From positions 1 to 24,157 of IMG/VR virus record IMGVR_UViG_3300008267_000369: DNA of 24,157 bases; one strand, 5' to 3'. Positions 750 through 18,515 of the stretch are shown in pieces (within the stretch, counting starts at the first letter, position 1; each line of letters opens with the position of its first letter). The notes under the pieces were generated by a model. The model saw only the letters and a program-made list of their open reading frames with translations. It had not been told where the DNA came from and made no database searches. A program made the position numbers and the translations under genes. The stretch comes from a virus.

Positions 750-3443
750 TTAGCTAAGTGTTAAAGGTTCGCAACAACCTATTTCACCTTTAATTTTTTT
801 ATCAAAATACTGATACATTACACCTTCTAAACCTAAATTTAAATCTGCTATTCCAGCATTCGTTAATTTACACCCAAACCCTTCAATGTTAGTGTAAGGG
901 TCTTTTATTTTTGTTGGTGTTGTATAATATGTTGGACAATGTGACCCATCTGGGGTTACCAGTGCTAATCTACCATCACCATAAAAACTTTTAAATGTTA
1001 AAAATTTATTGGTTGACCCAACTGGAACTGTAGTTGGTTGTAAAATATCACTATATGATAATTCACCAGAACCACCAGTTTCAAAAATATATTCTCTCAA
1101 AGTCCATTTACATGCTGCTGTACAACCACATTTATTATTACCACAACAAATGTTACCACTAGTCATCATGTTTAACGCTGTTGATGTGTTTAACCCTTCT
1201 TGAAATTGACTTTCAAAAAACATTGATGTTCCACCAATAGCTTTACAACATTCTTTATCAATAAAAATGCTGTCATAATTAGAACTAGCATTATTTTTTA
1301 TTGGTACACCTTTTGCATCTCTTTCATATAAATTAAACACATAAATACCAGTTGGTTCATCAAGTTGTTTACTAATTAAATTATCACAAGATAAAGTACT
1401 TGACCCAGCTTTAGTTACACAAACACTTAATGCTTCATCTATTCCATCACATGGACATCCACAAACACTAACTGCTTGTTCTGGCATTGGGTCTGCAATA
1501 ACTTCGGCAGTGTAAACATAACAACTATCTAAATCTTTACCAGTATCATCAACTATATCAATATAAGTTTGACCGTTATAACCATTAATAAGCCCTAAAT
1601 TGTAATTTGTAAATAGATTATTAGTATTAATTACGTTAGCTGTTGTACTAACAGTTACTGTTGAAAAATTAGGTATAAGAGCTCTGAATTGATTAAGGTA
1701 TTTAGAACCTCCATCATATGGACCTACGTGAGGGTTGTTACCTAATAATACGTCTATGTCGGCCATTTGACCACCAGTCTGTCTATACCATAAACCATAA
1801 TTTTGATAATACATATCATCAGAGTTAGGTAAAGGTTTTGGGTAACCATCAGTATCAACTGGGTATAAACTAGGGTCAGTATCTAATCCGTTAGCATCTA
1901 AAACTTCCAAAAATAAATCAATATCAATTGGTCCATCAGCTAAATAAATATGTTCATTAAATGTTATTAATCCATTAGGTATTCCTAAGAATCTTAATAA
2001 GAATTCTACTGATTTTCTAGCACCTTTTGATTTCCATATCCATGGTGAATTTAATATTAATCTTCTCCATAGTTCAACATCAATTTCAGAAGGTGTCATA
2101 CCAACTGATTGACCATCATAAGTAGATTTTTCACTTTTAGTGAAAGTTTCTAATAAATCATCACCTAATACAGATGTTATTAATTCCCAACCTAAAACTC
2201 TTGCCAAATCTTTTAAATATTTATCTGGCATGTTGTTTCTTTTGTTATATGTAACAACATGTGCAAATGAAATACCTTTAATGAATTTATTTATGTCATC
2301 GAAAGACCTACCGTATATGTTTAAAGTTTTTGTTACTTTTTGTCCAGTAGTCGTATCTTTATGTAAATCGTCTAAACGTACTGGTAAAGTATCAAATGCT
2401 GATATTGATTCAGAAACTAAAAATCTAGACATCAAGTTTGTTTCATTTGAATCAAACTCGTTAACCATTTCTAATATGTTTGTAACATAATTTTCATAAT
2501 CAAGACTGTTAAACTCTAAATTATAACCATCTTTTACTGGCCATGTTAAAGTTTTAGTTTCAGTTAATAAAACCCCAGTTTCTGACTTTTTAGGGTATTC
2601 AAATGTTGTTGTGTATTTTGGTATTGTAGTTAAATTTAATAAAACTTTTTTTAACCCATCTAATGTATTGAAAAATAAATTTGTTGCAGCACTTTTTGGT
2701 TTAATGTGATAAGTTACTGTTTGACTTAAACTATTGCCAAATGGGTCGCCAACAACTGTTAAATAGATATAATCATTAGTAATATCGTTAGAACCAATAA
2801 ACTCTACTAAATTATATTCGGTATCATTAATGAATACACAATATTCTAAATAATTAATGACTAAATCTCTAAGTTGGTTGCTTTCGTTGTATGTATTAAG
2901 TAATGTCCCAGTTTGAACGTAATTAATATCATACTTATTTATTAATGCAGCTGTGCTTACTTTAAAAGTGGCTAAATTTGTTAATATATCATATGAATAA
3001 TTTTCATACGTATTTGTTACAATACTAGAGGAAGGGTTAATAGCGTTTACATAAATTGATGCTGGCCATTCTATTATTATGTCTTCTAACGTAACTCTAA
3101 AATATTCACTCATTGACCCAAATAACGCATGATTTTTAAGATTTGAAGAATCAAGTCTTAAAATTGTTTTTGCATTAGCTTTAACAATTTGTTGAAACTG
3201 AGTTTCGTTAGGCGTTAATTCATCAATAGTATAAAACTTTGAGAAATTATTTGTAATGTAGTTTTTTGTTACTTTAGGGTCTAAGTTTGTTGTCACACTA
3301 AAGTTACCCATAGTGAATAGAGTATTACCCCCGTTATTGGTTAACTGTAAACCAACTAGGTCTGGACTATATTCATTGTATTCTATATCCCTATTATATA
3401 TTGTTTTTTTAGAATACCCAGGTACTTTAATTTTTTTAGCCAT
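750..3443 (-). CDS. Large baseplate/tail protein with P2 gpI-like segment and Cys-rich C-terminal third
   Basis: The protein has 897 residues with an ATG start 15 bases after the preceding stop. Residues about 378-500 (…DKYLKDLARVLGWEL…, then …ELWRRLILNSPWIWKSKGAR…SVEFLLRFLGIP…) have the layout of the P2 gpI-type tail protein domain: a helical segment, then W-R-LI, then KGar-sve-ll-flGi. That family sits in the baseplate wedge of contractile tails. The N-terminal 370 residues look like beta-rich structural sequence and hold almost no Cys. In contrast the last 260 residues carry 17 Cys, including CGCPC (661-665), a CC pair (732-733) and a cluster at 766-778, suggesting metal binding or disulfides. 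Position downstream of gp25 and gp6 supports a baseplate role, possibly a counterpart of T4 gp7, but that equivalence is a guess. Confidence 0.82.
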   Translation of the reverse strand: MAKKIKVPGYSKKTIYNRDIEYNEYSPDLVGLQLTNNGGNTLFTMGNFSVTTNLDPKVTKNYITNNFSKFYTIDELTPNETQFQQIVKANAKTILRLDSSNLKNHALFGSMSEYFRVTLEDIIIEWPASIYVNAINPSSSIVTNTYENYSYDILTNLATFKVSTAALINKYDINYVQTGTLLNTYNESNQLRDLVINYLEYCVFINDTEYNLVEFIGSNDITNDYIYLTVVGDPFGNSLSQTVTYHIKPKSAATNLFFNTLDGLKKVLLNLTTIPKYTTTFEYPKKSETGVLLTETKTLTWPVKDGYNLEFNSLDYENYVTNILEMVNEFDSNETNLMSRFLVSESISAFDTLPVRLDDLHKDTTTGQKVTKTLNIYGRSFDDINKFIKGISFAHVVTYNKRNNMPDKYLKDLARVLGWELITSVLGDDLLETFTKSEKSTYDGQSVGMTPSEIDVELWRRLILNSPWIWKSKGARKSVEFLLRFLGIPNGLITFNEHIYLADGPIDIDLFLEVLDANGLDTDPSLYPVDTDGYPKPLPNSDDMYYQNYGLWYRQTGGQMADIDVLLGNNPHVGPYDGGSKYLNQFRALIPNFSTVTVSTTANVINTNNLFTNYNLGLINGYNGQTYIDIVDDTGKDLDSCYVYTAEVIADPMPEQAVSVCGCPCDGIDEALSVCVTKAGSSTLSCDNLISKQLDEPTGIYVFNLYERDAKGVPIKNNASSNYDSIFIDKECCKAIGGTSMFFESQFQEGLNTSTALNMMTSGNICCGNNKCGCTAACKWTLREYIFETGGSGELSYSDILQPTTVPVGSTNKFLTFKSFYGDGRLALVTPDGSHCPTYYTTPTKIKDPYTNIEGFGCKLTNAGIADLNLGLEGVMYQYFDKKIKGEIGCCEPLTLS

Positions 3444-5406: not shown

Positions 5407-6233
5407 TACAATGCGTTTATTTGGTATAAATTAACAATGACTGTTTCATTGTTATAACTTACATTATTGCTAGGTAAAGTTGTTCCATTTCCTTGGTAGG
5501 TTGAATCAATATAATACTTGAACCCAGTGTTAGTTCTAATAATCTTATATTTAGTATATAATTCTTTGACTAACTTATCTATATACTGAGGCGTATTTTT
5601 AACCATCATATTTAAAGTCTTACCGTTTTTAGCATTTTTAAAAACAGCTTTCATGTATAAATCTTTTGATTCGTTAATAGGAATCTGATTTTTAAAATCA
5701 TAAATAAAATAACCATTTGAAACACCGTTCTTAACGGCTAATGGATTTGTTAAAATAAATTTAACTTGTATTTGATTTGCTGGTTTAACTCTACCATCTT
5801 TATCGAAATCAATACTATTTAAAAGACAATTAATGTTTATTTTATTTACTAATCTTTGCGTCAACGGATTATCTGTATCATAAAACAATAAATCAATAGA
5901 ACTATAAATAAAACTATTTTTTCTATTAGCTAATTCTTCATTTGTAAAATTTATATCACTATAAAAACTAGAATAAGAATTGCTGCTATTTAAGAAATTG
6001 AAATTATAGATTACTGTATTTATTGGATTACCGTTGCTATTAACTGGTGTAAACCTAGTTTTTTCATAATCAGAAATTGGGTTTATTGAAGCTTCTACTT
6101 GTTCTTTAACAAATACTTCTTCAATTACCTCGTAATTATCAACTATTTGAAATTCAGTTTGAGCTGGAATAGGTAAATAAAAAAAATCAGAATTTAAATT
6201 CTTACTGTTTATTGTAAATTTTTTAACATACAT
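5406..6233 (-). CDS. Unrecognised structural protein of the baseplate operon (275 aa)
   Basis: A 275-residue protein starting at ATG 6233, inside the last codons of the upstream gene (11-base overlap), and ending in a one-base overlap with the next start. It begins MYVKKFTINSKNLNSDFFYL and is rich in Asn, Tyr, Phe and Lys with beta-type alternation, no membrane segment and a single Cys. The length is in the range of T4 gp8/gp9, but I can see no sequence feature supporting either name. Both overlaps imply coupled translation with its neighbours, so a stoichiometric role in the same sub-assembly is a reasonable inference. Confidence 0.8.
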   Translation of the reverse strand: MYVKKFTINSKNLNSDFFYLPIPAQTEFQIVDNYEVIEEVFVKEQVEASINPISDYEKTRFTPVNSNGNPINTVIYNFNFLNSSNSYSSFYSDINFTNEELANRKNSFIYSSIDLLFYDTDNPLTQRLVNKININCLLNSIDFDKDGRVKPANQIQVKFILTNPLAVKNGVSNGYFIYDFKNQIPINESKDLYMKAVFKNAKNGKTLNMMVKNTPQYIDKLVKELYTKYKIIRTNTGFKYYIDSTYQGNGTTLPSNNVSYNNETVIVNLYQINAL

Positions 6234-8028
6234 CTTCTGTTGGTGTGGTATTATATTTATCTGTTATTCTATTACCTAAATAGTCTGAAGGAAATTTTGT
6301 CCATAATAATTTCCATATACCAAAAGGGTCTTGTCTTTTTACTTTAAACATATAATTGTTATACAAGTAATGAGAACCGTTTAAAAATGGATAATCAATT
6401 GCTGTCTCATCACTATCATTTTGGCCAATATCTAACATATCTCTCCATATAATCCTACCATCACCTAAATTTGTCGCATAACTTGGTATGTCTACTGTAA
6501 ATTCATCGCCTTGTTCAACATAATTAGAAAAACGTCTAATTACAGTTTGGTAATGAGCCCTATAATAATAACCTTCATGTCTTGGTCCTAGGTCAATAGT
6601 GGTTGTTGCTTGTCCAGATGTTTTTGTTGTTTTTTCATTTATATAATTTAAAGTCGAAGGTGTTTCTCTGTTTAATGTGTTAAATCTATAGAACACTTCT
6701 TCTAAACGTGTTTCATTCAATGTTTTTTTGTTGTATTCAACTAAATCACCATAATACTCATTGTTACCTTGTGCAGAATTGTTATTATCTATTTGTACAG
6801 TCGATTCTAAGGGTTTAAATGAAACAAATGGTACAGTAACACCATTATGAATTTTTTGTATCACTGGGACGTTTAAAATGTGTTGTTGAATGTTGTTTGA
6901 ATCGTAAATAGAAAAGTAAGGTAACTCTAATCCAGAAGAGACTCTAGAAAATAAGTTATTGCTGCTAGTTTTAATTATTGTTAAGAATAATTCACTTAAC
7001 GGTCTACCTAGATTATCTTTTAAATCTGTAACATCAATATCTTCATTAAAAATAAATTGTTGTAATCTATCATTAAATAAGTTTTGAGAAAAACTAGCAT
7101 TATAGATATCATAATCATCTGTTTCAATAATGATTGTTGATTTAGTTTTTATTTTCTTAAATTTTCTAAAATAATAAATACATTCTTCATCATCAATAAT
7201 TTTTTTGAATCTAGAATTAGAGGTTAGTGTTCCAGTTGACGCAACTTCTAAAACAAAACAATAATCTTTTAAACTGTTTGTTGTGTCACCTAATGAATAC
7301 ACTGTATAATCACCATTAAATCCATTTGTGTTAACTATTCTTACTGTGTCACCAATGTTTAAATTATGTCTGCATGGTACTTTAAATATCGTCATTTGTT
7401 TATCAGATATTGTTACCGCTTCTGTGTCAATAATTAACAACCCTCCAGATACTAAAGAATGTTTATCATCAATAGAACTAGGATAAGTAATAGTTAATTC
7501 CCAGTTTTTAACACTTTTTAAATTATTACTATTATGGAATGGTTCATAATCTGGTAAAAAACTAAATCTAGTTCTGATTGGCTCCATGTCATAATATTTA
7601 CAGTTTTCAGTCACATCTGAACTATAATAACCAAACCAACCATCTCTTTCAGTTAAAAAATTATTAATAGCTGTAGGAAATGTGTTGTCGTTATCATCAG
7701 CGTTATTATTATCTTTTGGGTAAGACAAATCTAAAAAATCTGACATAGAATTAAAACCAGCTAATGTATATTTATCTGATTTTAATGAATCTGATAAATT
7801 AAATAATACATTACTTACTAATGGATTTATTGTACCCAAAATTCTATATGATTTACTACCTTGTCTTTCTTTATCAAAACGTTCATCAATATTAACTATT
7901 TTATAAATTTCATTATTTGGCATCAACCTACTAGTATTTTGTAGATTAACCTTTATAAAATTATCAACGTTCATTGATTCTTTTGATGTTTGACTATTTA
8001 GTCTTTGTCTTATTCTATCATCACTCAT
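6223..8028 (-). CDS. Unrecognised large structural protein of the baseplate operon (601 aa)
   Basis: I place the start at ATG 8028 (MSDDRIRQRLNSQ...), 2 bases after the stop of the 1528-residue gene. An in-frame ATG nine codons upstream (8055) would instead overlap that gene by 25 bases and add MFNCNKRLI. The adjacent-start rule seen throughout this block favours the shorter form (601 rather than 610 residues). The protein is polar, Asn/Asp-rich and beta-like with no membrane segment. The C-terminal 130 residues contain aromatic-rich stretches (EGYYYRAHYQTVIRRF, then GIWKLLWTKFPSDYLG). The size resembles T4 gp10 (602 aa), but no sequence similarity is claimed. The family is not recognised; a tail or baseplate role is inferred from context. 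Confidence 0.8.
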   Translation of the reverse strand: MSDDRIRQRLNSQTSKESMNVDNFIKVNLQNTSRLMPNNEIYKIVNIDERFDKERQGSKSYRILGTINPLVSNVLFNLSDSLKSDKYTLAGFNSMSDFLDLSYPKDNNNADDNDNTFPTAINNFLTERDGWFGYYSSDVTENCKYYDMEPIRTRFSFLPDYEPFHNSNNLKSVKNWELTITYPSSIDDKHSLVSGGLLIIDTEAVTISDKQMTIFKVPCRHNLNIGDTVRIVNTNGFNGDYTVYSLGDTTNSLKDYCFVLEVASTGTLTSNSRFKKIIDDEECIYYFRKFKKIKTKSTIIIETDDYDIYNASFSQNLFNDRLQQFIFNEDIDVTDLKDNLGRPLSELFLTIIKTSSNNLFSRVSSGLELPYFSIYDSNNIQQHILNVPVIQKIHNGVTVPFVSFKPLESTVQIDNNNSAQGNNEYYGDLVEYNKKTLNETRLEEVFYRFNTLNRETPSTLNYINEKTTKTSGQATTTIDLGPRHEGYYYRAHYQTVIRRFSNYVEQGDEFTVDIPSYATNLGDGRIIWRDMLDIGQNDSDETAIDYPFLNGSHYLYNNYMFKVKRQDPFGIWKLLWTKFPSDYLGNRITDKYNTTPTEDVC

Positions 8029-8030
8029 AA

Positions 8031-11000
8031 TTAACCTTTTATTACAATTGAACAACCAACACTATCCGATACTGAAATACTTACTGATGAAGGTGAAGGA
8101 CATGATTGACCATTACCAGCTTGGTAAGTAGTGTTTAATAAATATGGTGATGCTGGTGTTATCGTACCAATACCACCGTTAGCTGATATTTTATATTCAC
8201 AATACTTAATGTTATTAATCACTGTACTAGTTCTGGTGATAGAACCGTTTAATTCAACAGCTGGTACTGTTATGTTAAATTCTTTACTTGTCTCACAACC
8301 AACTTTATCAGTTAACGTTAAATTTACTTTAACATTAGTACCAGTAAATGTCGGAGATAAATTTTCAATAAAACTATATGTTAACCCACCAGCAAACGAT
8401 GCTAATTGAGCAATATTACTTATAGTCAAAGTTTTTTCAGCCCCATTATTTATTTTATATTTTAATATATATGGGAATCTTTTAGTGTATAAAAGTCCAG
8501 CATCAAGATGTGAAATACCAAAGTTAACAGTAACTGTTTGTCTGCTACATTGTTGTAAATTACTTCTATCTTTTATTTCTAACGCTACATTAGGTAGTTC
8601 AATTTCACTTTTATTTATATTTACCCATGTGCTAATTTCTTGAATACATCTTAATTTAGGGTCACCATTAAATTGGTCATTAGCTAAATAAACAGTCATT
8701 TTAGTATTACTAGCTAATGCAGAACTTGGCAAGTCAAAATATGTTTGTTGATTGGCAACATAAGGTTTAATTATCACATTGTCTTTACCACCAATTGAAT
8801 AAACAATGTAAACATTGTTATTTATCACACCACTAGCTATATCTATTGGTATTACATATTTATTTGGGTCACATTGTTTTGCTAATAATGCTGCTGATGG
8901 TTTTGTTGCTTTTAATTCTGGTGTTAAATGTTTAATTATCGCTGAAGTATTTGATGAAGACTTAAAAGCGTCTGTTACAGTTATATTATATTGACCAGCA
9001 AATAATTCAACAAATGTTGTATTAGAACCATCTGTACTTGTTATTGAATTTGAGTAACCTTTTGGTCCAGTAACGGTTATTGTGTAAGGTAATTTTCCAC
9101 CACTAACAATAACAGCGATACCTTCACTAGTTGATGTTTTACCACCAAAACATTGTATGTCAACATGTTTTTCAGTTATTACTAATGGAGTTGGACCAGT
9201 AACTTTTAAATCTTTAATTTCAACAGTAGTGTTACAAGAATCTTTAATCACTAATCTATAACCGCTACCTTTATTATCAGATAATAAATTTTTAATTTCA
9301 AAAGGTATTTGAGTCACAGCAACAGAACCAGTAGTTATTGATTTATTATCACTGTTGAATAGTTCGTAAGTATATCCACCACAACCACCATTAACACCAG
9401 TTATTAATATAATACCGTCACCAACTGTTGCATTTGTTGCATTTTTACTAACACTTGCAGACGCTGATAATTTAGGCGGTCCAGCAATTGTTGTTGATTG
9501 TTTAGTTGTGTTACCATTTTTATCAATTACTGTTATTATATAAGTACCAACACTTAAATTTGGGATTGAAATACTGGTATTACTAGCATTAATAGTTCCT
9601 TTTTTACTATAACCATTTGGTCCGCTTATTGAGTAACTATATGGTGCTGTTCCAAATTGTACACTAAAGATTATTGAACCAGTTGGGTTAGTAATTGACG
9701 CACCAACAGAAGCAGCTTTAATTGATAAGGTATCTGTGGTTATTATAGGACAAATACCAAAATACCTTTGATTTAATTTTTCAATAGCCGTAGCACCAGG
9801 TTTTGTACCAAAATAGAAAAAATATGAATGTTGTGGTTGTGAAAACACATTTTTACCACCATAACCTCTAAAATTAGCATATTCTAAACCGTTTTGAGTT
9901 TTACTATTGTAATCATACGTTGGTACATTTTGTGTATTAAAATTAGTATTGTATGGTGTTGAAGGAAATTTATATCTTGGTGCAGATGGACTAAGATATG
10001 TTAAATCTTTATTTAATGAATAAAAAATATCTCTAAAAAACACACCAGTGTCATCATCAATATCCCTATAGTCTAAATAACCGTTAGGTCTAACTGTTAC
10101 TCCGTTAACTGTAATAGCATCGTCTGTAGTTGCACCGAATTCACAAATATGTCTTACATTCAAACACTGTTTATAATCCATTGTAATACCTAAACAATTT
10201 ATTGAAAAGAAAAGACCTGGGATTTTATCACTTAGTTCTACCATACCAGTTGTTAAGACACTACTTTTATCGTTAGGGTCTTCAAATTCAACTGTTGTAG
10301 ATGGTAATTTATATGTTGTTGTTTGTAGTAATTTATATATACTAGGCATACCTTGCCAGTCGCATGATTCTGTTGAACCTAATAAAATTATATCAGTCGC
10401 AAATAATTTATATTTAGTGTCATGCATTGATGCTGCATAATATAGAACATCTTCAACTTTAGTTTCTTTAAAGAAAACTTCAACATTTTTTAGTACACCG
10501 TCTTTTATACCACCACTATCAAATGTTTTATCTTCTGAACCATTTAACCCAATAACATTTGGGTCTCCATCATAACAAGAGTCTAACAAATAATTGGTAA
10601 AACATGGGTTATCTGGTCCGTTTTCTTTGTCAGTATCTACACCGCTATAACCTTCTGAACCTAGGAAATCTTCACAATCATATTCACAAAATCTTGTTCT
10701 TCCATTTCTTTTTTTCTTATATTGAATTAAAAATGCGTATAATGTACCATTAACCCAATCGTTATAAAAATCAAACCTAAAAACATTTAATGCTTCGGCT
10801 AAAGCTGCTTGTAAACAATCATCAGCACCAGCTAAAGGGTCAAATTCATCATTAACTCCATCACCTGGGTAAAAAACTGTTTTACTTCCATCGTATTTTT
10901 TTTTCAGTTTTGATAAACTCATACCAAAATCTAATGATTTTTTATAACAGCCTGGGGCAAAGATATTACCATCAGTAGATGGACATTCTATTGATAAACA

Positions 11001-12617
11001 AGGAGCGTAAGGTAAAATTTCAAAACAGTCACAACATGTTCCCTTAGCAATACAAAAGTCACACTTATTAACATCTAAAAGCCAGCTTGGGAATGCACCT
11101 AATAGTGCACCAATACCATATATTATACTACAAATAATACCTAAAATACCATTAAGTAATAATATAACAAAGTTTATAATAGGTATTAATACCGCATTTA
11201 TTGCCACTAATATAAATAACATTATCGTTAATAATGTACATAGAAACGAATATAGTGGGTCGCCAGATGAATCTACTCTATTATAAGGGAAAGGATTTTT
11301 ATCTCCAGTACATGCGTTAACATCTTTAACACCGACAAAATTTCTAACGTTAAGACTACTTGCTTGAAATCTAGAAATAAACGAACTTACAGTGTAGATT
11401 TTGTTCCAATATAATGACCTAAAACTAGTTGGTTTTGTGTTTGACCCAAATTCATAGTCAATTTCACTCTGATTACTAGGGTTATTAGGTACTAAAAAAT
11501 TTGCTCTAGTTCTTTTATCTAAATCACCAGCTTGGTTCATACCTATTCTAAACCTAACATTAGCTCTAGTTGCTATACCTATACTAGGGTTATCAGAAGG
11601 TACCAACTGACCAAATTCATCAGTTACCACGTAATCTAAATTCATAGGTAATTGATACGCCCATGTACCATCTTCATCGATTAATTCACCTCCATCAACA
11701 TCAAATCTTTCAATATTACCGTCTGGTGTTTCTCGAATCATTTCAATTTTTCCAGATGTTGTTATTTGTTCACATAACGAACCCATAACTCTTCTAGGTC
11801 TACACCAGTTACTAACACCATCAGTATCAGAATCGCCAAAAATAGAACCAATAAAGATTGCATTTGATTTGATGTTTAAGTTCATGTCTAAATCAACTCT
11901 AGTAATACCAATTTCACATGTTTCAGTATCGCCCCAGAATGGTTGTACGTTAACACTTGTATTTAATGATTTAACTTGAACTAAACTATCTAAGTTTTTA
12001 CTATATTTAAATTTTTGTGCTGAATCAAAGAATTTTTCTGGTGTTCCAGCAGCAATTAAATCATAAGGTTTTTGAGAAGCCATACCAATATCTGAAATAT
12101 CTATATCGGCATGTATAGTGTGTGTACCAACTGGTACGCCAAATAACATAAAATCCCCAGAAGCATTTGTAGTTGCAGTGAATTTATAATATTTTGTAAA
12201 AATATATTCTAATTCTGGATTATCTAAAATTTCTCGTTTACTAGGCATAGTGCCTATTGGCGTAAAACAAGGGTTATTTTTCTCATTATTTTTAGGGAAA
12301 AGATTGTATCTAATACCATCTAAATCTCTATCTGTCACTATTTCATAAGGGTATAATGATTTAATTAGTGGGTTCTCTTTGTCTTCATCATCAATAGGTA
12401 TAAAAATACTTACTTTAGCATTTGGAACACCAAAACCATTATTAACTATAACTCGACCAATTACAACACCGTAATCAGAACAAAAATTTCTATAAGCTTC
12501 TTCTTGTGAAATTTTTAAACTAAGTGTTTCTAAATAATCAAACTCTTGGTCTATTTTTACTTTTAAATAGTTATCACCACCGTTAGGTGTTGTTCTTATT
12601 CTAATAGTTTTTGACAT
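8031..12617 (-). CDS. Giant multidomain tail/baseplate protein with transmembrane segment and SprB-like repeats
   Basis: The protein has 1528 residues. Residues about 51-177 look like a carboxypeptidase-regulatory-type beta-sandwich (GRVIVNNGFGVPNAKVSIFI … ASGDFMLFGVPVGTHTI) with a long insertion between its strands. Residues 456-511 form an unbroken hydrophobic stretch long enough for two membrane helices, followed at once by a Cys cluster (519-545: C519, C522, C528, C529, C531, C540, C545, then C557). Residues about 960-1235 hold three roughly 90-residue repeats of SprB/Ig-like type, with PY(S/T), GP-GYS and G-Y-ITVxD signatures. The C-terminal 290 residues are further beta-rich modules. 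It lies between a small membrane protein and baseplate-type genes. It is likely a tail or adsorption protein that contacts the host surface; the exact role is unknown. The membrane segment is very unusual for a tail protein. Confidence 0.85.
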   Translation of the reverse strand: MSKTIRIRTTPNGGDNYLKVKIDQEFDYLETLSLKISQEEAYRNFCSDYGVVIGRVIVNNGFGVPNAKVSIFIPIDDEDKENPLIKSLYPYEIVTDRDLDGIRYNLFPKNNEKNNPCFTPIGTMPSKREILDNPELEYIFTKYYKFTATTNASGDFMLFGVPVGTHTIHADIDISDIGMASQKPYDLIAAGTPEKFFDSAQKFKYSKNLDSLVQVKSLNTSVNVQPFWGDTETCEIGITRVDLDMNLNIKSNAIFIGSIFGDSDTDGVSNWCRPRRVMGSLCEQITTSGKIEMIRETPDGNIERFDVDGGELIDEDGTWAYQLPMNLDYVVTDEFGQLVPSDNPSIGIATRANVRFRIGMNQAGDLDKRTRANFLVPNNPSNQSEIDYEFGSNTKPTSFRSLYWNKIYTVSSFISRFQASSLNVRNFVGVKDVNACTGDKNPFPYNRVDSSGDPLYSFLCTLLTIMLFILVAINAVLIPIINFVILLLNGILGIICSIIYGIGALLGAFPSWLLDVNKCDFCIAKGTCCDCFEILPYAPCLSIECPSTDGNIFAPGCYKKSLDFGMSLSKLKKKYDGSKTVFYPGDGVNDEFDPLAGADDCLQAALAEALNVFRFDFYNDWVNGTLYAFLIQYKKKRNGRTRFCEYDCEDFLGSEGYSGVDTDKENGPDNPCFTNYLLDSCYDGDPNVIGLNGSEDKTFDSGGIKDGVLKNVEVFFKETKVEDVLYYAASMHDTKYKLFATDIILLGSTESCDWQGMPSIYKLLQTTTYKLPSTTVEFEDPNDKSSVLTTGMVELSDKIPGLFFSINCLGITMDYKQCLNVRHICEFGATTDDAITVNGVTVRPNGYLDYRDIDDDTGVFFRDIFYSLNKDLTYLSPSAPRYKFPSTPYNTNFNTQNVPTYDYNSKTQNGLEYANFRGYGGKNVFSQPQHSYFFYFGTKPGATAIEKLNQRYFGICPIITTDTLSIKAASVGASITNPTGSIIFSVQFGTAPYSYSISGPNGYSKKGTINASNTSISIPNLSVGTYIITVIDKNGNTTKQSTTIAGPPKLSASASVSKNATNATVGDGIILITGVNGGCGGYTYELFNSDNKSITTGSVAVTQIPFEIKNLLSDNKGSGYRLVIKDSCNTTVEIKDLKVTGPTPLVITEKHVDIQCFGGKTSTSEGIAVIVSGGKLPYTITVTGPKGYSNSITSTDGSNTTFVELFAGQYNITVTDAFKSSSNTSAIIKHLTPELKATKPSAALLAKQCDPNKYVIPIDIASGVINNNVYIVYSIGGKDNVIIKPYVANQQTYFDLPSSALASNTKMTVYLANDQFNGDPKLRCIQEISTWVNINKSEIELPNVALEIKDRSNLQQCSRQTVTVNFGISHLDAGLLYTKRFPYILKYKINNGAEKTLTISNIAQLASFAGGLTYSFIENLSPTFTGTNVKVNLTLTDKVGCETSKEFNITVPAVELNGSITRTSTVINNIKYCEYKISANGGIGTITPASPYLLNTTYQAGNGQSCPSPSSVSISVSDSVGCSIVIKG
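8913..9740 (-). repeat. Three SprB-like protein repeats within the 1528-residue gene
   Basis: Residues about 960-1235 of the giant tail protein contain three related modules. Repeat 1 carries GTAPYSYSISGPNGYS and VGTYIITVIDKNGN. Repeat 3 carries GGKLPYTITVTGPKGYS and AGQYNITVTDAFKS, preceded by the VDIQCFGG opening typical of SprB repeats. Repeat 2 (GGCGGYTYELFNSD … GYRLVIKDSCNTT) is more divergent. The repeats are recognisable at protein level only and their DNA has diverged, so they are not a recent duplication. Confidence 0.7.
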
Positions 12618-12625
12618 ATATAACT

Positions 12626-13009
12626 TTATTCAATCGTAGATTTTATTTTGTTAACTGGGTACAAGTATTTGTTTTCAGCTTCTTCAAAATCTTTATATTC
12701 TTTTTCTTCTTTTTCCTTCTCTTCTAGTTCTCTTATTTTTTTCCATCTAGTTAATGTTTTTGTTAGACTTAGTACATTAACTTTTTTATTTAAAACTAAT
12801 GTTTTAAATAAAAACCAAATAGCAAATATATTAATTATCGGAATCAATAATAATGAAAGTATAAAACCAAAAGTTCTAACACTGTAATAAGTTACCTTAT
12901 ATGGTAAACTTAAATTTTTTACTTCTTCATCATGGTTAATATCATTACCATTTAATTCATCTTGCTTGTTAAGCATGTTGTTTTTGTCATTTTTACAATT
13001 ACATCCCAT
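12626..13009 (-). CDS. Small membrane protein with MGCNCK start and charged C-terminal helix
   Basis: A 127-residue protein between gp6 and the giant tail protein, ending 8 bases before the latter's start. It begins MGCNCKNDKNN, with two Cys at positions 3 and 5 but no signal peptide. Residues about 47-68 (…FILSLLLIPIINIFAIWFLF) are one clear membrane helix. The C-terminal half is strongly charged (KKIRELEEKEKEEKEYKDFEE) and should form a coiled coil. The hydrophobic core shares LIPIIN with the membrane segment of the 1528-residue neighbour. I do not recognise a named family. It could be a chaperone for that neighbour, an inner-membrane factor in baseplate assembly, or a lysis or superinfection factor; context favours the first two. 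Confidence 0.8.
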   Translation of the reverse strand: MGCNCKNDKNNMLNKQDELNGNDINHDEEVKNLSLPYKVTYYSVRTFGFILSLLLIPIINIFAIWFLFKTLVLNKKVNVLSLTKTLTRWKKIRELEEKEKEEKEYKDFEEAENKYLYPVNKIKSTIE

Positions 13010-13076: not shown

Positions 13077-14888
13077 TTATTTAACCCTTACTCTAATATC
13101 TGTTGTGTATTTAATTTCAAACATTGAAGTAGGTTCACCAAACAATGTGTAATCCGCACTTACATCAATTAATCTTGTTTCTTCATCCAAATAAGGCTGC
13201 GAAATTTCATTTAAACTATATTTGTTTTCACCAACTTTATTATAAACTGAAATGTTTGTTACGTTTAACACACCCCCAATATTGTTTATAACTTCAATCA
13301 ATGGTGACAAATAAATGTTATCACCCATATCAAATTTATTTATATCCATATATTCTTTAGTTTTATTAATAATTTCGGATATAATTTGTGATTGTGGTAT
13401 TTTATTTTCAATCATAACATCATAATCGATTGCTAAATTAATAATCCTACCATCTTTTATATGAACATAATCATTTAACATTCTGTAGTCAGCTAAATAA
13501 TTAGATATATTTTCTTTTAATGTAGTATTTGATTCGTTAGATAGTCTACCATTTCTGTCTAATGTTAAAATATAAACAGCTATTTTATTTCTATCTTCAA
13601 AAATACCATTTCTAAATGGAGTACCAAAATTACCTGGCATTTGTGCGACTCTAGTTTGATAATCTTTTATCGTTACAGCTCTATTTTGTGAAGCAAAGTT
13701 ATATTTAACCATGTATCTTATCTCTTCAACTGTAGGTGCGTCTTTACCACCGACAGCTGGTAAAAAATTGTTTACTTTTAATGTCTTTTTAACGCTTTGA
13801 TTAATTGCAGCAGAAGGGCCATTAATTACCATGTCTAAAACACCTAAATTTGTAATTGTGTTTGGACCTACGTTAGTATCACTACCACCACCTACACGAT
13901 ATTTAATAAATAATGTTGTGTTTGCTGTATGTACTTCACCTAATGACATGTTGTTTATAAAGTTTCCTATTTGATTAACTAAAGTAGGGTCAACATTGAA
14001 ATCACATAAACTGCTTATATTTTGTGAACCAGCACCAAAAGTTATTTTTGTAAAACCTAAATCAGTATATTCTTTAATAAATTTTTTACTTGTAGACATC
14101 CATTTACCTGGCGTAACTGTAGAATTTAGACTAACTCTATTATTATCAACAACAAATACTTTATCTTCAGATAATGAAGACATTTCATACCATCTAATAT
14201 TACTGTTGTTGAATTGTGAATTTGTTGGTTGACCTTGTAAATTTGTACCTGGTAGTGTAATACATGATAATATTTCGGTAACGTTATTGTCTGGTAATAT
14301 AATTTCTAAAAAAGGAATTACATCTTGTGTTGTTAAAACTCTTTTAAATATTTTTGTAGCTCCATTAACTACCATTTCTCTTTTTGTTAACGTATAATTT
14401 AATACAGTACCGTTAGCATTAATATTAGGTAAAACGATTCTATTAGGGATACCATTTTTATTAAATGGACTAGAAAAATCTACATCATTAACTAATTCAA
14501 ATACTTTACCAGCACCATTAAATTGTGAACCAGCTCTAAGTAATGGAGCGTATGATACATCAAAAGTATCACCAAAAACTGGTATTGTAACACTTATATC
14601 TACAATTGTTGCACTGGAACGCTTATTAGGTATGTTTAACCCAAATGTTCTAGCTAATGATAACAATGAATGTCTTTCTTGTGCGTAATCTATTTGTGTT
14701 TCAGCAAACATTCTGTCTGTATTATGAGATAACATATCACCAACAGCAGCATTTAAATCTATAAGCATCTGACCAACAGAAGCATCATTAAAATCGCTAA
14801 ATATTTCTGGATAATATTTTTTCACATAATTAACTAGGTCAGTTCTAATATCGGCAAAGTTCCTAGAGTCGTAATTTACATTTGGCAT
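13077..14888 (-). CDS. 6: Baseplate wedge protein gp6 (baseplate J family)
   Basis: A 603-residue protein (T4 gp6 is 660) forming the iris-like ring of contractile-tail baseplates, where gp6 dimers join the wedges. The N-terminus has the usual pattern of this family: a DLVNYVKKYYPEIFSDF helix, then DASVGQMLIDLNAAVGDML and QERHSLLSLARTFGL. The C-terminus (…GDNIYLSPLIEVINNIGGVLNVTNISVYN) matches the conserved closing alpha/beta domain of J-like proteins. It starts 4 bases after the gp25 stop, reproducing the gp25-gpJ neighbourhood common in phages and contractile injection systems. The start at ATG 14888 is firm, being the first ATG after the upstream stop. No truncation or frameshift is visible. 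Confidence 0.92.
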   Translation of the reverse strand: MPNVNYDSRNFADIRTDLVNYVKKYYPEIFSDFNDASVGQMLIDLNAAVGDMLSHNTDRMFAETQIDYAQERHSLLSLARTFGLNIPNKRSSATIVDISVTIPVFGDTFDVSYAPLLRAGSQFNGAGKVFELVNDVDFSSPFNKNGIPNRIVLPNINANGTVLNYTLTKREMVVNGATKIFKRVLTTQDVIPFLEIILPDNNVTEILSCITLPGTNLQGQPTNSQFNNSNIRWYEMSSLSEDKVFVVDNNRVSLNSTVTPGKWMSTSKKFIKEYTDLGFTKITFGAGSQNISSLCDFNVDPTLVNQIGNFINNMSLGEVHTANTTLFIKYRVGGGSDTNVGPNTITNLGVLDMVINGPSAAINQSVKKTLKVNNFLPAVGGKDAPTVEEIRYMVKYNFASQNRAVTIKDYQTRVAQMPGNFGTPFRNGIFEDRNKIAVYILTLDRNGRLSNESNTTLKENISNYLADYRMLNDYVHIKDGRIINLAIDYDVMIENKIPQSQIISEIINKTKEYMDINKFDMGDNIYLSPLIEVINNIGGVLNVTNISVYNKVGENKYSLNEISQPYLDEETRLIDVSADYTLFGEPTSMFEIKYTTDIRVRVK

Positions 14889-14892
14889 AAAA

Positions 14893-15273
14893 TTATAATT
14901 TAATTACTATTATATCGGTTGTTTCAAAAACACCTTCGGTTATTACATATTGCATTGTTACAACAGCAGCATAATCACTTTCATCTGACGGTTCAATTTT
15001 TAAATCAGTAAAAGTTAATTTTGGCATGAATTTTTTTGTGACTGTTCTTATTTCTTCTAAAATACCAGCGTAAGTTAATTCATCATTTGGTTCAAATATA
15101 AATTTTAATAGATTTGTACCAAAATCTGGCATATATAGTCTTTGACCTCTTTGAGTTAATATCAAATGTAATAAATCAGATTTTAACGCTTGATTTGGGT
15201 CTACATTCAAATCTAAGAAAAAACCTTTCTTACTATCTTTGAATGGATATGTTATGTTTATAGCTTGAGCCAT
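14893..15273 (-). CDS. 25: Baseplate wedge protein gp25 (GPW/gp25 family)
   Basis: A 126-residue protein (T4 gp25 is 132) with the family core at residues 34-62 (…LLHLILTQRGQRLYMPDFGT…LLKFIFEP). The helix, the TxxGeR turn, the p-FGt motif and the closing FEP are in the expected order. In T4 this lysozyme-like-fold protein nucleates sheath polymerisation from the baseplate and binds gp6 and gp53. It is the first gene of the late block, lying downstream of a TATAAATA element and followed after 4 bases by gp6. There is no Shine-Dalgarno; the leader before ATG 15273 is A-rich. Confidence 0.93.
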   Translation of the reverse strand: MAQAINITYPFKDSKKGFFLDLNVDPNQALKSDLLHLILTQRGQRLYMPDFGTNLLKFIFEPNDELTYAGILEEIRTVTKKFMPKLTFTDLKIEPSDESDYAAVVTMQYVITEGVFETTDIIVIKL

Positions 15274-15396: not shown

Positions 15397-17550
15397 TTAC
15401 GCTGAGCAGCCAAAACATTCAAATTGACTGTCTTTTGGTTTTTCAACTTGTGCTACTTGACTACTAGCTAATTTTTTGTTAGCTTCTAGTTTAGATTTAG
15501 TTCTAGTGTAATAAACACCAGTTTTCAATCCGCCTTTCCATGCATACATAAGTGCTGAGGCAATTTTAGCATATTTAGCGTCAGAATGATAAACATTCAA
15601 TGATTGTGATTGGTCAACATATTTGTTTCTGATAATAGATAAATCTAATAAAACTTTTTGAGGTATTTCCCATACGTCTTTATATCTAAATCTAATATCT
15701 TCTGGTATTTCAACAATGTTTTGAATACTACCTTGGTTAGCAATGACTTTATCAATCATATCTCTATCCCATAAATCTAAATCTAGCAATTCATTAACCA
15801 AATATTTGTTAACAATTAAGAACTCACCTTGACCAACTCGTCTTGTAAATAAATTAGATGTTACTGGTTCAAATGATTCAAACACACCTAACAAAATTGC
15901 AGAACTTGCTGTTGGCATAAGAGCTAATAATAAACTGTTTAACATTGGAATTGGTTGTCCTTCTGGTAATGGTGACCATCCTTCAATATAAGTTTTACCT
16001 TCTGAGTATGGACTTCCTTCCCATGATGGATAATTTCTTCCTTGTTCAATCGCTAATCTCATTGATTCCTCAACACCAGCTTTATACATTGTTTCAAAGA
16101 TATCTTTGTTCCATTGTTTAGCTTCTTCTGACTCATAAGCAATTTTTTTCTTAGCAAAGAAGTCAGCCATACCAGCAACACCAATAGCCAATGCTCTTTG
16201 GTCTTCTCCAGCAGCTTTACTCCATTCATCAGACCATTTGTTTCTATCTATTACGCTATTTAAAGCTTTTACAAGAACTTTTGTAGTCTTAGCAATAGTT
16301 TCCAATGTATCGTGTTGTGAAAGGTTAACAGAAGCCAGCGTACACTGTGGTGTGTATTTTGGTCTTGATGCTTGGAACACTTCAATACATAAATTAGATT
16401 GTTTAATAATACCAATGTTTCTTTGCATGTTATTTTTGTTAGCATTATCTTTAAACATCACGTAAGGTTTACCACTCTCAACTTGTGATTTGATAATAGC
16501 ATCAAAAATACTCTTAGGGTTAACTTTTTTACCTAATCCTAATTCAACAGCTTTATTATATTCAGCAACAAAACCTTCCCCATATAATTCATGAAGTGGT
16601 GTTAAACCAGCTTTTTTAATTTCGTTAGGACAGAATGTATACCAATCTTCATTGGTTTGTAATTTCTCCATAAACAAATCGTTGATAATTACAGATGTAA
16701 ATAAATCTCTTGTTCTTAATTGTTCATCACCGATAGGTAATGTTAAATCTAAGAAATCTAAGATATCTCTGTGCCATACTGACAAATATAACGCACAACT
16801 TCCAGAACGAGAACCTTGTTTGTAGAATCTCATTTTTGATTGTACCATATCTGCTAATCTAACAACACCACCAGCATTACCTTTGAATGACTCAACAATA
16901 CTATCTTTACTACGTAATGGGTCAATCAATAATCCAATACCAGAACCTTCTTTTGAAGCTGCTGCTATCTTTGTTAATGTTTCTTCAATACCTTCAAATG
17001 AATCGTCTTCTAAATGTGTAAGATTACATGAAATCATACCATTTCTTTCTGGAACACCAGCGTTAGTATATGTCGGTGTTGCAAAGTTACCACGTTTTGA
17101 TGTAATTTCATCTAATAATTCTAATCTATCAGATTCATTATCATTATGTAAGAAACCAGAAACACGATTATACATACATGATGGTAATTCAGTAGGTGCT
17201 TTGTTATCATCTTTCAAAGAATATTTTGAAAGGAATGTTGTTGCAGCAAAGAAATCATAAGTTAAATCAACTGGTTGTAATTCTTTACCAACAATTTTAG
17301 ATTGTCTAGATAAAAGTATTCTACCACCCAGTAATGAATAATCTGGGTGTTGAATAACTTTATCCGCTGCTTTAAACGCAATTATCTCATCGATTTCAGT
17401 TGTTGTAATGTTATCACTAATCAACGGAATAACTTCTTGAAATAATGTGTCAGAATCAACTTTAAGACCTTTGGCTTGTGTTTTAATTCTTGTTAAAATT
17501 TTATTTGGTGTAAACGCTTGTGACGTTTTGTCTCTTTTTACTATTCTCAT
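15397..17550 (-). CDS. nrdA: Ribonucleoside-diphosphate reductase, large (alpha) subunit, class Ia type
   Basis: A 717-residue NrdA (T4: 754) that reduces ribonucleoside diphosphates for phage DNA synthesis. An ATP-cone spans about residues 1-90, giving allosteric activity control. Active-site residues are all visible: redox pair C175 (GMISCNLTHL) and C403 (PQCTLASVNL), the N386-x-C388-x-E390 catalytic triad with C388 as radical cysteine, and the radical-transfer tyrosines Y680-Y681 (TGVYYTRTK). The C-terminus ends CFGCSA, the swinging CxxC that passes electrons from thioredoxin or glutaredoxin. It starts 11 bases after nrdB and is followed by a terminator, so nrdB-nrdA end one transcript. 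No inteins, introns or frame breaks are seen. No glutaredoxin gene lies in the window. Confidence 0.97.
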   Translation of the reverse strand: MRIVKRDKTSQAFTPNKILTRIKTQAKGLKVDSDTLFQEVIPLISDNITTTEIDEIIAFKAADKVIQHPDYSLLGGRILLSRQSKIVGKELQPVDLTYDFFAATTFLSKYSLKDDNKAPTELPSCMYNRVSGFLHNDNESDRLELLDEITSKRGNFATPTYTNAGVPERNGMISCNLTHLEDDSFEGIEETLTKIAAASKEGSGIGLLIDPLRSKDSIVESFKGNAGGVVRLADMVQSKMRFYKQGSRSGSCALYLSVWHRDILDFLDLTLPIGDEQLRTRDLFTSVIINDLFMEKLQTNEDWYTFCPNEIKKAGLTPLHELYGEGFVAEYNKAVELGLGKKVNPKSIFDAIIKSQVESGKPYVMFKDNANKNNMQRNIGIIKQSNLCIEVFQASRPKYTPQCTLASVNLSQHDTLETIAKTTKVLVKALNSVIDRNKWSDEWSKAAGEDQRALAIGVAGMADFFAKKKIAYESEEAKQWNKDIFETMYKAGVEESMRLAIEQGRNYPSWEGSPYSEGKTYIEGWSPLPEGQPIPMLNSLLLALMPTASSAILLGVFESFEPVTSNLFTRRVGQGEFLIVNKYLVNELLDLDLWDRDMIDKVIANQGSIQNIVEIPEDIRFRYKDVWEIPQKVLLDLSIIRNKYVDQSQSLNVYHSDAKYAKIASALMYAWKGGLKTGVYYTRTKSKLEANKKLASSQVAQVEKPKDSQFECFGCSA

Positions 17551-17561
17551 ATTTTATAAAT

Positions 17562-18515
17562 TTAAAATTCTTCATCAAACATACCATCTATAGTTGTTGG
17601 TATCTCAACTCTAGTATACTCACCTTCTCTTTTTTCAAAGAAATTATTTTTAGATGATAACCCTATTCTTGACATATACTCTAATGGGTTTCTAACATTA
17701 AACTCAACTGGACATCCAAAATCGTTTAAAACAATGTCAGTAACGTATTGTACGTATTTAACCATATCTTGTTTTGTAAGACCTTGTAAACCATCTGGCA
17801 TACTTTCTTCAATGAAAACTTTTTCTGCTTCGTAACAACCTAAAACTATTTTTCTAATCTCATCTTTTGATAATTTGTATTCATCTTTAAGATAATTTTT
17901 GTATAATTTAAGAGCAAACTCATAGTGGAATGTTTCATCACGTAAAATCAACTCATTCATTGCAGCAAGACCTGGCATTTTATTACGACTTCTGTACCAA
18001 AATACACCAGCGAACACACTAGCAAATGAAATACCTTCAACACATGCAAAAGCTAACAATCTATGTGGGAATGATGGATGTTCAATCCAGTTTTCAGCCC
18101 ATGCTGCTTTTTTAGCAACAGCTTGGTTTGTTTCCATAGAATTAAATAATTCATCTCTTTCAATTAAATCTTTAATATAAGTTTCAATCAATAAAGAATA
18201 ACCGTTAGCATGTACTTGTTCAATAAAAGTTTGATGACCATAGAAGTATTGTGCCTCTAATATCTCAACTTCTCTTTGAAAATTGTTAGCTAAGTTTTCA
18301 ATCACCAATCCATCTGAAATAGCGAAAAATGCTAAAATGTTTTTCAGATAAATCTTCTCTTCTTCTTTTAGCTCATCAAATCTATCTTTAGATAAATCTG
18401 GTTCTTCAGCAACCCAAGTTTGTGCTTCAGCTTTTTTGTAATCTTCCCATAAATCGTTATGAATTACTGGGAAGATTGAATACCTCTTTTTTAATGTTTT
18501 GTCTTTTAAATACAT
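17562..18515 (-). CDS. nrdB: Ribonucleoside-diphosphate reductase, small (beta) subunit, class Ia type
   Basis: A 317-residue NrdB that houses the di-iron tyrosyl radical used by NrdA. By alignment with the family the metal ligands are D68 (FFAISDGL), E99 and H102 (IEQVHANGY), E160 (VEGI), E194 and H197 (RDETFH). Y106 sits at the radical-tyrosine position, so it is a tyrosyl-radical (Ia-like) enzyme rather than a tyrosine-free class Ic form. The acidic, aromatic C-terminus (DGMFDEEF) is the usual tail that docks to NrdA. The sequence is of the eukaryote-like branch (AEEPDLSKD, ILAFFAISDG). It lies 23 bases after the helicase gene and 11 bases before nrdA, giving the order nrdB-nrdA. Confidence 0.96.
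   Translation of the reverse strand: MYLKDKTLKKRYSIFPVIHNDLWEDYKKAEAQTWVAEEPDLSKDRFDELKEEEKIYLKNILAFFAISDGLVIENLANNFQREVEILEAQYFYGHQTFIEQVHANGYSLLIETYIKDLIERDELFNSMETNQAVAKKAAWAENWIEHPSFPHRLLAFACVEGISFASVFAGVFWYRSRNKMPGLAAMNELILRDETFHYEFALKLYKNYLKDEYKLSKDEIRKIVLGCYEAEKVFIEESMPDGLQGLTKQDMVKYVQYVTDIVLNDFGCPVEFNVRNPLEYMSRIGLSSKNNFFEKREGEYTRVEIPTTIDGMFDEEF

Follow-up and report, generated by a model that had tools for sequence, protein, structure and literature searches.

Genetic organization of the baseplate gene cluster

The analysed stretch of viral DNA, which comprises 24,157 nucleotides and is referred to as the window, carries a gene cluster with the order, in the direction of transcription, gp25-like gene, gp6-like gene, a gene for a predicted membrane protein of 127 amino acids (the partner) and a gene for a protein of 1528 amino acids that is hereafter called the giant (Table 1). 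The gp25-like and gp6-like neighbours corroborate the baseplate location that the original prediction had assumed for the giant. Its place after the gp6-like gene, from which it is separated in the window only by the partner gene, is constant in freshwater and rumen phages. Five open reading frames on the same strand are located downstream of the giant, the last complete one of which specifies a protein related to a large product of the baseplate cluster in Flavobacterium phage immuto. The reading frame at positions 6223-8055 overlaps the 3' end of the giant gene with its listed TTG start, and translation may in fact begin at an ATG nine codons further in (MSDDRIRQ).

Table 1. Coordinates of the baseplate genes and of the hydrophobic helix in the window.
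Feature	Position	Strand	Evidence
gp25-like baseplate wedge subunit	14893..15273	-	Pfam GPW_gp25 above cut-off; phrog_261
gp6-like baseplate wedge subunit	13077..14888	-	phrog_219, E 3e-22
Partner, 127 aa, with N-terminal MGCNCK, one predicted TM helix (~46-68) and acidic tail	12626..13009	-	upstream gene in 158/159 loci; alignment; AlphaFold2
Giant, 1528 aa, helix carrier	8031..12617	-	ORF list; homologues in IMG/VR and MAG contigs
Conserved core of the giant, residues 1-960, beta-rich domains flanking the helix	9738..12617	-	AlphaFold2 mean pLDDT 84, pTM 0.82
Hydrophobic run, residues 452-514	11076..11264	-	hydropathy scan versus shuffles; dG21 sum -3.88
One uninterrupted helix, residues 454-505; polar stripe at C460, T/K464, N474, N482, N489	11103..11258	-	AlphaFold2; periodicity and phase; conservation
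Codon of the invariant Asn474, inside the helix	11196..11198	-	149/149 distinct homologues
Variable C-terminal part of the giant, residues 961-1528, Ig/SprB-like repeats	8034..9737	-	PHROG 2973; SprB; falling conservation
Probable wedge protein related to Immutovirus gp161	750..3443	-	hhalign probability 95%, E 1.6e-8

The tail type was deduced from a relative of 126 kb (L005) that encodes a giant with 78% identity. Since this relative contains the same cluster along with genes for a tail sheath, a baseplate hub and a tape measure protein of 911 amino acids, it represents a contractile-tailed phage. These data support the assignment of the giant to the baseplate cluster of a contractile-tailed phage, its role in the tail being deduced from gene context. 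The clusters of Immutovirus and Mel-JY01 have a gp6-like protein in common, but neither a relative of the giant nor a partner of the transmembrane type was detected in them; the two proteins are thus not required for this tail type, and the module they form belongs to a lineage and not to contractile tails as such. Relationship of the giant to the large baseplate protein of Immutovirus, Mel-JY01 or LR756508 was rejected because no similarity was found, these proteins being related instead to the product of positions 750-3443. Comparison of the Immutovirus-type protein with T4 gp7 or P2 gpI by hhalign was not significant, so that a gp7-like role of the protein at 750-3443 is suggested only by a motif recognized by eye.

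The giant protein and its hydrophobic helix

No Pfam family was detected above cut-off in the giant, and no Pfam, PHROG or PDB family spans its core. The C-terminal part yielded a match to the Hoc-like family PHROG 2973 (E 2.5e-7) and a sub-threshold match to SprB in Pfam, and conservation drops in this region. The hydrophobic stretch described in the original prediction proved to be real: residues 456-511 map exactly to positions 11252-11085, and their mean Kyte-Doolittle value of 2.25 over 56 amino acids exceeds that of all 500 shuffles of the giant sequence, which reached 1.53 at most. The maximum over 19 amino acids (KD19) is 2.79 in this run and only 1.15 in the rest of the giant, which contains nothing comparable. 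The stretch had been called unbroken, and indeed not a single Asp, Glu, Lys or Arg occurs between residues 454 and 514, although the run is not purely hydrophobic since Asn residues are present at the conserved positions 474, 482 and 489. The negative dG21 sum, a simple estimate calculated independently of position, predicts insertion of the segment into a membrane.

The original prediction had further proposed a double membrane-spanning segment. The length would suffice for two helices, but AlphaFold2 modelling of residues 1-960 with 59 homologue sequences yielded one unbroken helix of 52 residues, with pLDDT values of 85-93 up to residue 490 and of 67-77 at its end. Polar positions recur along the helix at intervals of about 3.6 residues (453, 457, 460, 464, 467, 471, 474, 478/9, 482, 486, 489, 493, 496/7, 500, 504 and 507), and the phase of the hydrophobic moment, calculated with 100 degrees per residue, is nearly constant at about 105-168 degrees across all windows. 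The single modelled helix and the constant phase disfavour a hairpin of two helices, and the notion of a double segment was abandoned. The Ile-rich helix thus displays a narrow conserved polar stripe while its other faces are hydrophobic, which is the reverse ('inside-out') of a soluble coiled coil. Its length corresponds to about 78 A and exceeds one bilayer crossing.

The helix is followed in the giant by a Cys-rich stretch (residues 519-681, window positions 10575-11063), in which C545 and C601 are invariant and C557, C644 and C672 are conserved. A metal or disulfide chemistry shared between this stretch and the CxC motif of the partner is possible.

Conservation of the helix in homologous proteins

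Three overlapping scans of IMG/VR confirmed 164, 162 and 161 stretches with homologues of the giant, and the best 80 of each scan were retained. The homologues are located on contigs of up to about 412 kb. Each of the 146 distinct homologous segments is hydrophobic, with a 19-residue maximum of at least 1.77, and contains Asn at position 474; homologues lacking the segment, which the original prediction had named as evidence to the contrary, were therefore not encountered among the relatives found. With a slightly different filter, Asn474 was present in 149 of 149 distinct homologues and Cys460 in 148 of them. The segment varies in length, as the first approximately 20 residues up to Asn474 are constant and the remainder comprises from a few to more than 70 residues. 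The rumen homologues have a shorter segment, in which Lys or Arg often occupies the stripe positions 464, 468 and 475. In one homologue (L027:1597-5991) the hydrophobic segment stretches over residues 483-556 and another one is located at 624-658, and in a further locus (L060:995-5668) the giant is distributed over three overlapping reading frames of 610, 561 and 406 amino acids that together represent nearly the full protein, owing either to assembly frameshifts or to a real split.

Six loci encoding a giant were present in MAG or single-cell contigs labelled as Bacteroidales, Paludibacteraceae, Clostridiales, Mycoplasmatota and Prochlorococcus; on account of these mixed labels, the host is not settled by the bins. 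The relative in the contig of a Prochlorococcus single-cell assembly (L086, QCKH01000004.1) may reflect the host or contamination by an attached phage. A collection of phage records that included phi29 contained no match to the giant at an E value of 1e-5, a profile search of the PDB matched no chain, and a fold search of the PDB with the core returned just weak Ig-like pieces with low TM-scores. Among predicted viral structures, A0A8S5LA66 of Myoviridae sp. ctPuP5, a phage that presumably originates from a gut metagenome, matched the whole core (E 1.4e-86, TM-score 0.77, 30% identity), and according to the modelled structures this uncharacterised protein belongs in all likelihood to the same family. 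A match to an Exiguobacterium phage was regarded as a chance hit, the gene context being different.

The small partner protein

Of the 159 distinct loci, 158 contain upstream of the giant a gene for a small protein that combines a C-x-C motif at its N-terminus (in most cases M-x-C-x-C-K) with a single TM-like segment, and the small upstream protein of the lone exception (L059) starts with the CC variant MSCCK. In a control stretch inside the giant, partner-type matches occurred by chance at a rate of 1/140. The partner gene ends at most 50 nt from the start of the giant in 154 loci, whereas reading frames of about 200-560 amino acids, at least two of them endonuclease-like by eye, are located between the two genes in the other four (L158, L229, L164 and L050), where the gap possibly represents a spot for homing insertions. 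In the alignment of the partner proteins Cys3 and Cys5 are invariant and Lys6 and Pro57 nearly so. AlphaFold2 predicted a helix of 39 residues (35-73) in the partner and mostly low confidence for the remainder. The co-occurrence of the two genes suggests that the helix of the partner might pair with that of the giant. Derivation of one helix from the other by duplication, considered on the basis of the common patterns K-x-x-G/A-F and P-I-I-N, was not supported (hhalign probability 4%).

Lipid or protein environment of the helix

Long lipid-loving helices are not expected in tail baseplates, and the original prediction had left the choice between a buried core and a membrane-inserting device. 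The hydrophobic positions of the helix exchange Ile, Leu, Val and Phe more freely than the neighbouring folded domains, with hydrophobicity being kept but not identity: the entropy of hydrophobic columns is 1.88 in the helix versus 1.03 in the N-terminal domain and 1.15 in residues 600-960 (p 4e-8 and 1e-5, respectively). Such free substitution would fit non-specific, lipid-like contacts, and a loosely packed protein environment would be compatible as well. The insertion-energy sum, a simple estimate that ignores position effects, is below 0 in 82 and below 2 in 117 of 145 homologues, whereas on the same scale the N-terminal domains of these homologues range from 8 to 15 and never fall below 8. 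As far as can be judged from sequence, this pattern is what lipid contact would give. The polar pattern, the freedom of substitution and the nature of the neighbouring gene thus favour the membrane, and T4 gp7 keeps the buried core alive.

T4 gp7 belongs to the baseplate wedge, and its structure has been solved (several PDB entries). It contains a TM-like helix at about residues 886-905, and its record notes the C-terminus as a predicted integral membrane domain. Among the baseplate, sheath and tube proteins of T4 that were tested, it possesses the strongest hydrophobic segment (KD19 2.07, dG21 0.26, KD40 0.83). Hydrophobicity alone therefore does not decide membrane insertion. Like the giant, gp7 is large. 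Its gene directly follows gp6, whereas the partner gene lies between the gp6-like gene and the otherwise adjacent gene of the giant, and its helix is a single short one near the C-terminus; moreover, the phage of the window has the separate Immutovirus-type protein at 750-3443. The giant was rejected as a homologue of gp7, as no similarity was detectable (hhalign probability 0.1%).

A works-like precedent for membrane engagement may be seen in gp9 of Bacillus phage phi29, a tail knob protein that likewise contains an extended hydrophobic element. In the published structure, its pore-forming L-loops are bundled as helices within the knob; on release of the genome they leave the tail and are reported to arrange themselves into a helix barrel, the outer surface of which is hydrophobic (PMC6542822). 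The passages on this structure mention no membrane-protein partner. The phi29 protein differs in belonging to a short-tailed phage, in being an unrelated protein of 599 amino acids with a loop in a hexameric tube, and in its less hydrophobic segment, the KD19 of which (1.29) is lower than the family minimum of the giant. Homology between the two proteins was detected neither by sequence (E 1e-5) nor by PDB profile or fold search.

The combination of a TM helix in a contractile machine with a dedicated co-encoded protein also occurs in the prePAAR effectors of the T6SS, although their Eag chaperones are soluble and the partner of the giant is a predicted membrane protein. The TM helices are reported to be located on the cargo of the machine and to be handled by the dedicated Eag chaperones (PMC7773334). 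In long tails, the usual carriers of membrane segments are tape measure proteins such as those of TP901-1 and P2 (gpT) (PMC5099701 and others). The KD19 of P2 gpT is 2.49. The giant matched no tape measure family in the PHROG scan, and unlike tape measures with TM segments it is accompanied by a separate tape measure in related genomes. The tape measures of two related genomes contain marginal hydrophobic segments only (1.76 and 1.58), and no large protein of the tail cluster other than the giant has a strong TM-like segment there; a sample of two genomes does not suffice to claim that the membrane function has shifted from the tape measure to the giant.

Proposed role of the giant and alternative explanations

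A membrane-engaging part is probably built into these phages, since every relative found retains the helix, always with a small membrane protein encoded beside the giant. We tentatively prefer the reading that the giant is a baseplate-associated virion component, the membrane-engaging helix of which is shielded and used together with the partner, most likely at infection. The helix of 52 residues would be kept shielded in the baseplate, most simply by the co-encoded small membrane protein, until a rearrangement of the baseplate exposes it. Several copies would then insert into the envelope of the host, where they would line or brace a passage for the tail tube or the DNA. Presence in the virion, pairing with the partner, oligomerization, insertion and the timing at infection are steps that we infer. 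The shorter segments of the rumen homologues with their Lys or Arg residues in the stripe, and a helix longer than one bilayer crossing, argue against membrane engagement.

The example of T4 gp7, a solved baseplate protein encoded directly after gp6, shows by analogy that a TM-like helix can reside in a soluble baseplate, and it is possible, although we hold it to be somewhat doubtful, that the helix of the giant is likewise packed in the baseplate, in a bundle with gp6-like helices, with the helix of the partner or with both, and never meets lipid. The proximity of the giant to the gp6-like gene and the conservation of helix bundles in the wedge core of contractile systems (PMC10457771) are in line with such a buried core. 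Compared with the T4 baseplate proteins that were tested, however, the helix is far longer and more hydrophobic (KD40 2.54 versus at most 1.24), and conservation at its hydrophobic positions is loose, in contrast to the remaining hydrophobic columns of the giant. In addition, sequence similarity of the giant to gp7 is lacking, and the neighbouring gene product bears the hallmarks of a membrane protein.

These hallmarks also bear on an unlikely alternative, in which the giant and the partner insert into the inner membrane of the host at a late stage of infection and serve there as an anchor for the baseplate or wedge during its growth, so that the contact with the membrane would be part of assembly and not of entry. 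The partner, a product of the baseplate cluster with one predicted membrane pass, the gene of which lies close to that of the giant, would be expected to reach the membrane, but the giant has no evident signal sequence, its helix would have to insert between two large folded domains, no anchored baseplate pathway has been shown for these phages, and related baseplates do without the module. Very improbable is a function outside the virion, for instance as a phage-made membrane protein acting in superinfection exclusion, lysis timing or surface display, with the position in the baseplate cluster being incidental. The resemblance of the C-terminal Ig/SprB-like repeats to surface adhesins would suit such a role, whereas the constant position after the gp6-like gene in phages from two environments and the missing signal peptide are opposed to it. 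We know of no exclusion or lysis protein with a large conserved core like that of the giant.

Little is understood so far of the way in which DNA passes from contractile tails through the inner membrane. A literature search on baseplate proteins with TM helices found no matching paper, and a membrane-engaging baseplate part of this kind seems not to have been described. The segment is shared by all relatives that were found, contains an invariant Asn and has a near-universal membrane-protein neighbour; the phage group is widespread and without match among the named phages searched. In a more far-reaching and rather unlikely version of the preferred membrane-engaging role, a large uncultured clade of contractile-tailed phages would possess a two-protein baseplate pore, in which helices of both the giant and the partner are assembled around Asn474 into a mixed barrel. 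This barrel would span the membrane of the host during infection and would thereby assume a function that is otherwise ascribed to the tape measure.

Genes outside the baseplate cluster

A scan for defence systems detected nothing. Two reading frames at positions 15397-18515, resembling subunits of ribonucleotide reductase by eye, are located between replication-type genes and the gp25-like gene, and the order of reading frame sizes around them is the same in one of the relatives (L092). The tail cluster of the latter additionally includes a reading frame of 2253 amino acids (L092:227-6985) with an endolysin-like stretch at residues 1700-1797 (phrog_2649, E 0.0013), which possibly specifies a wall-degrading hub.
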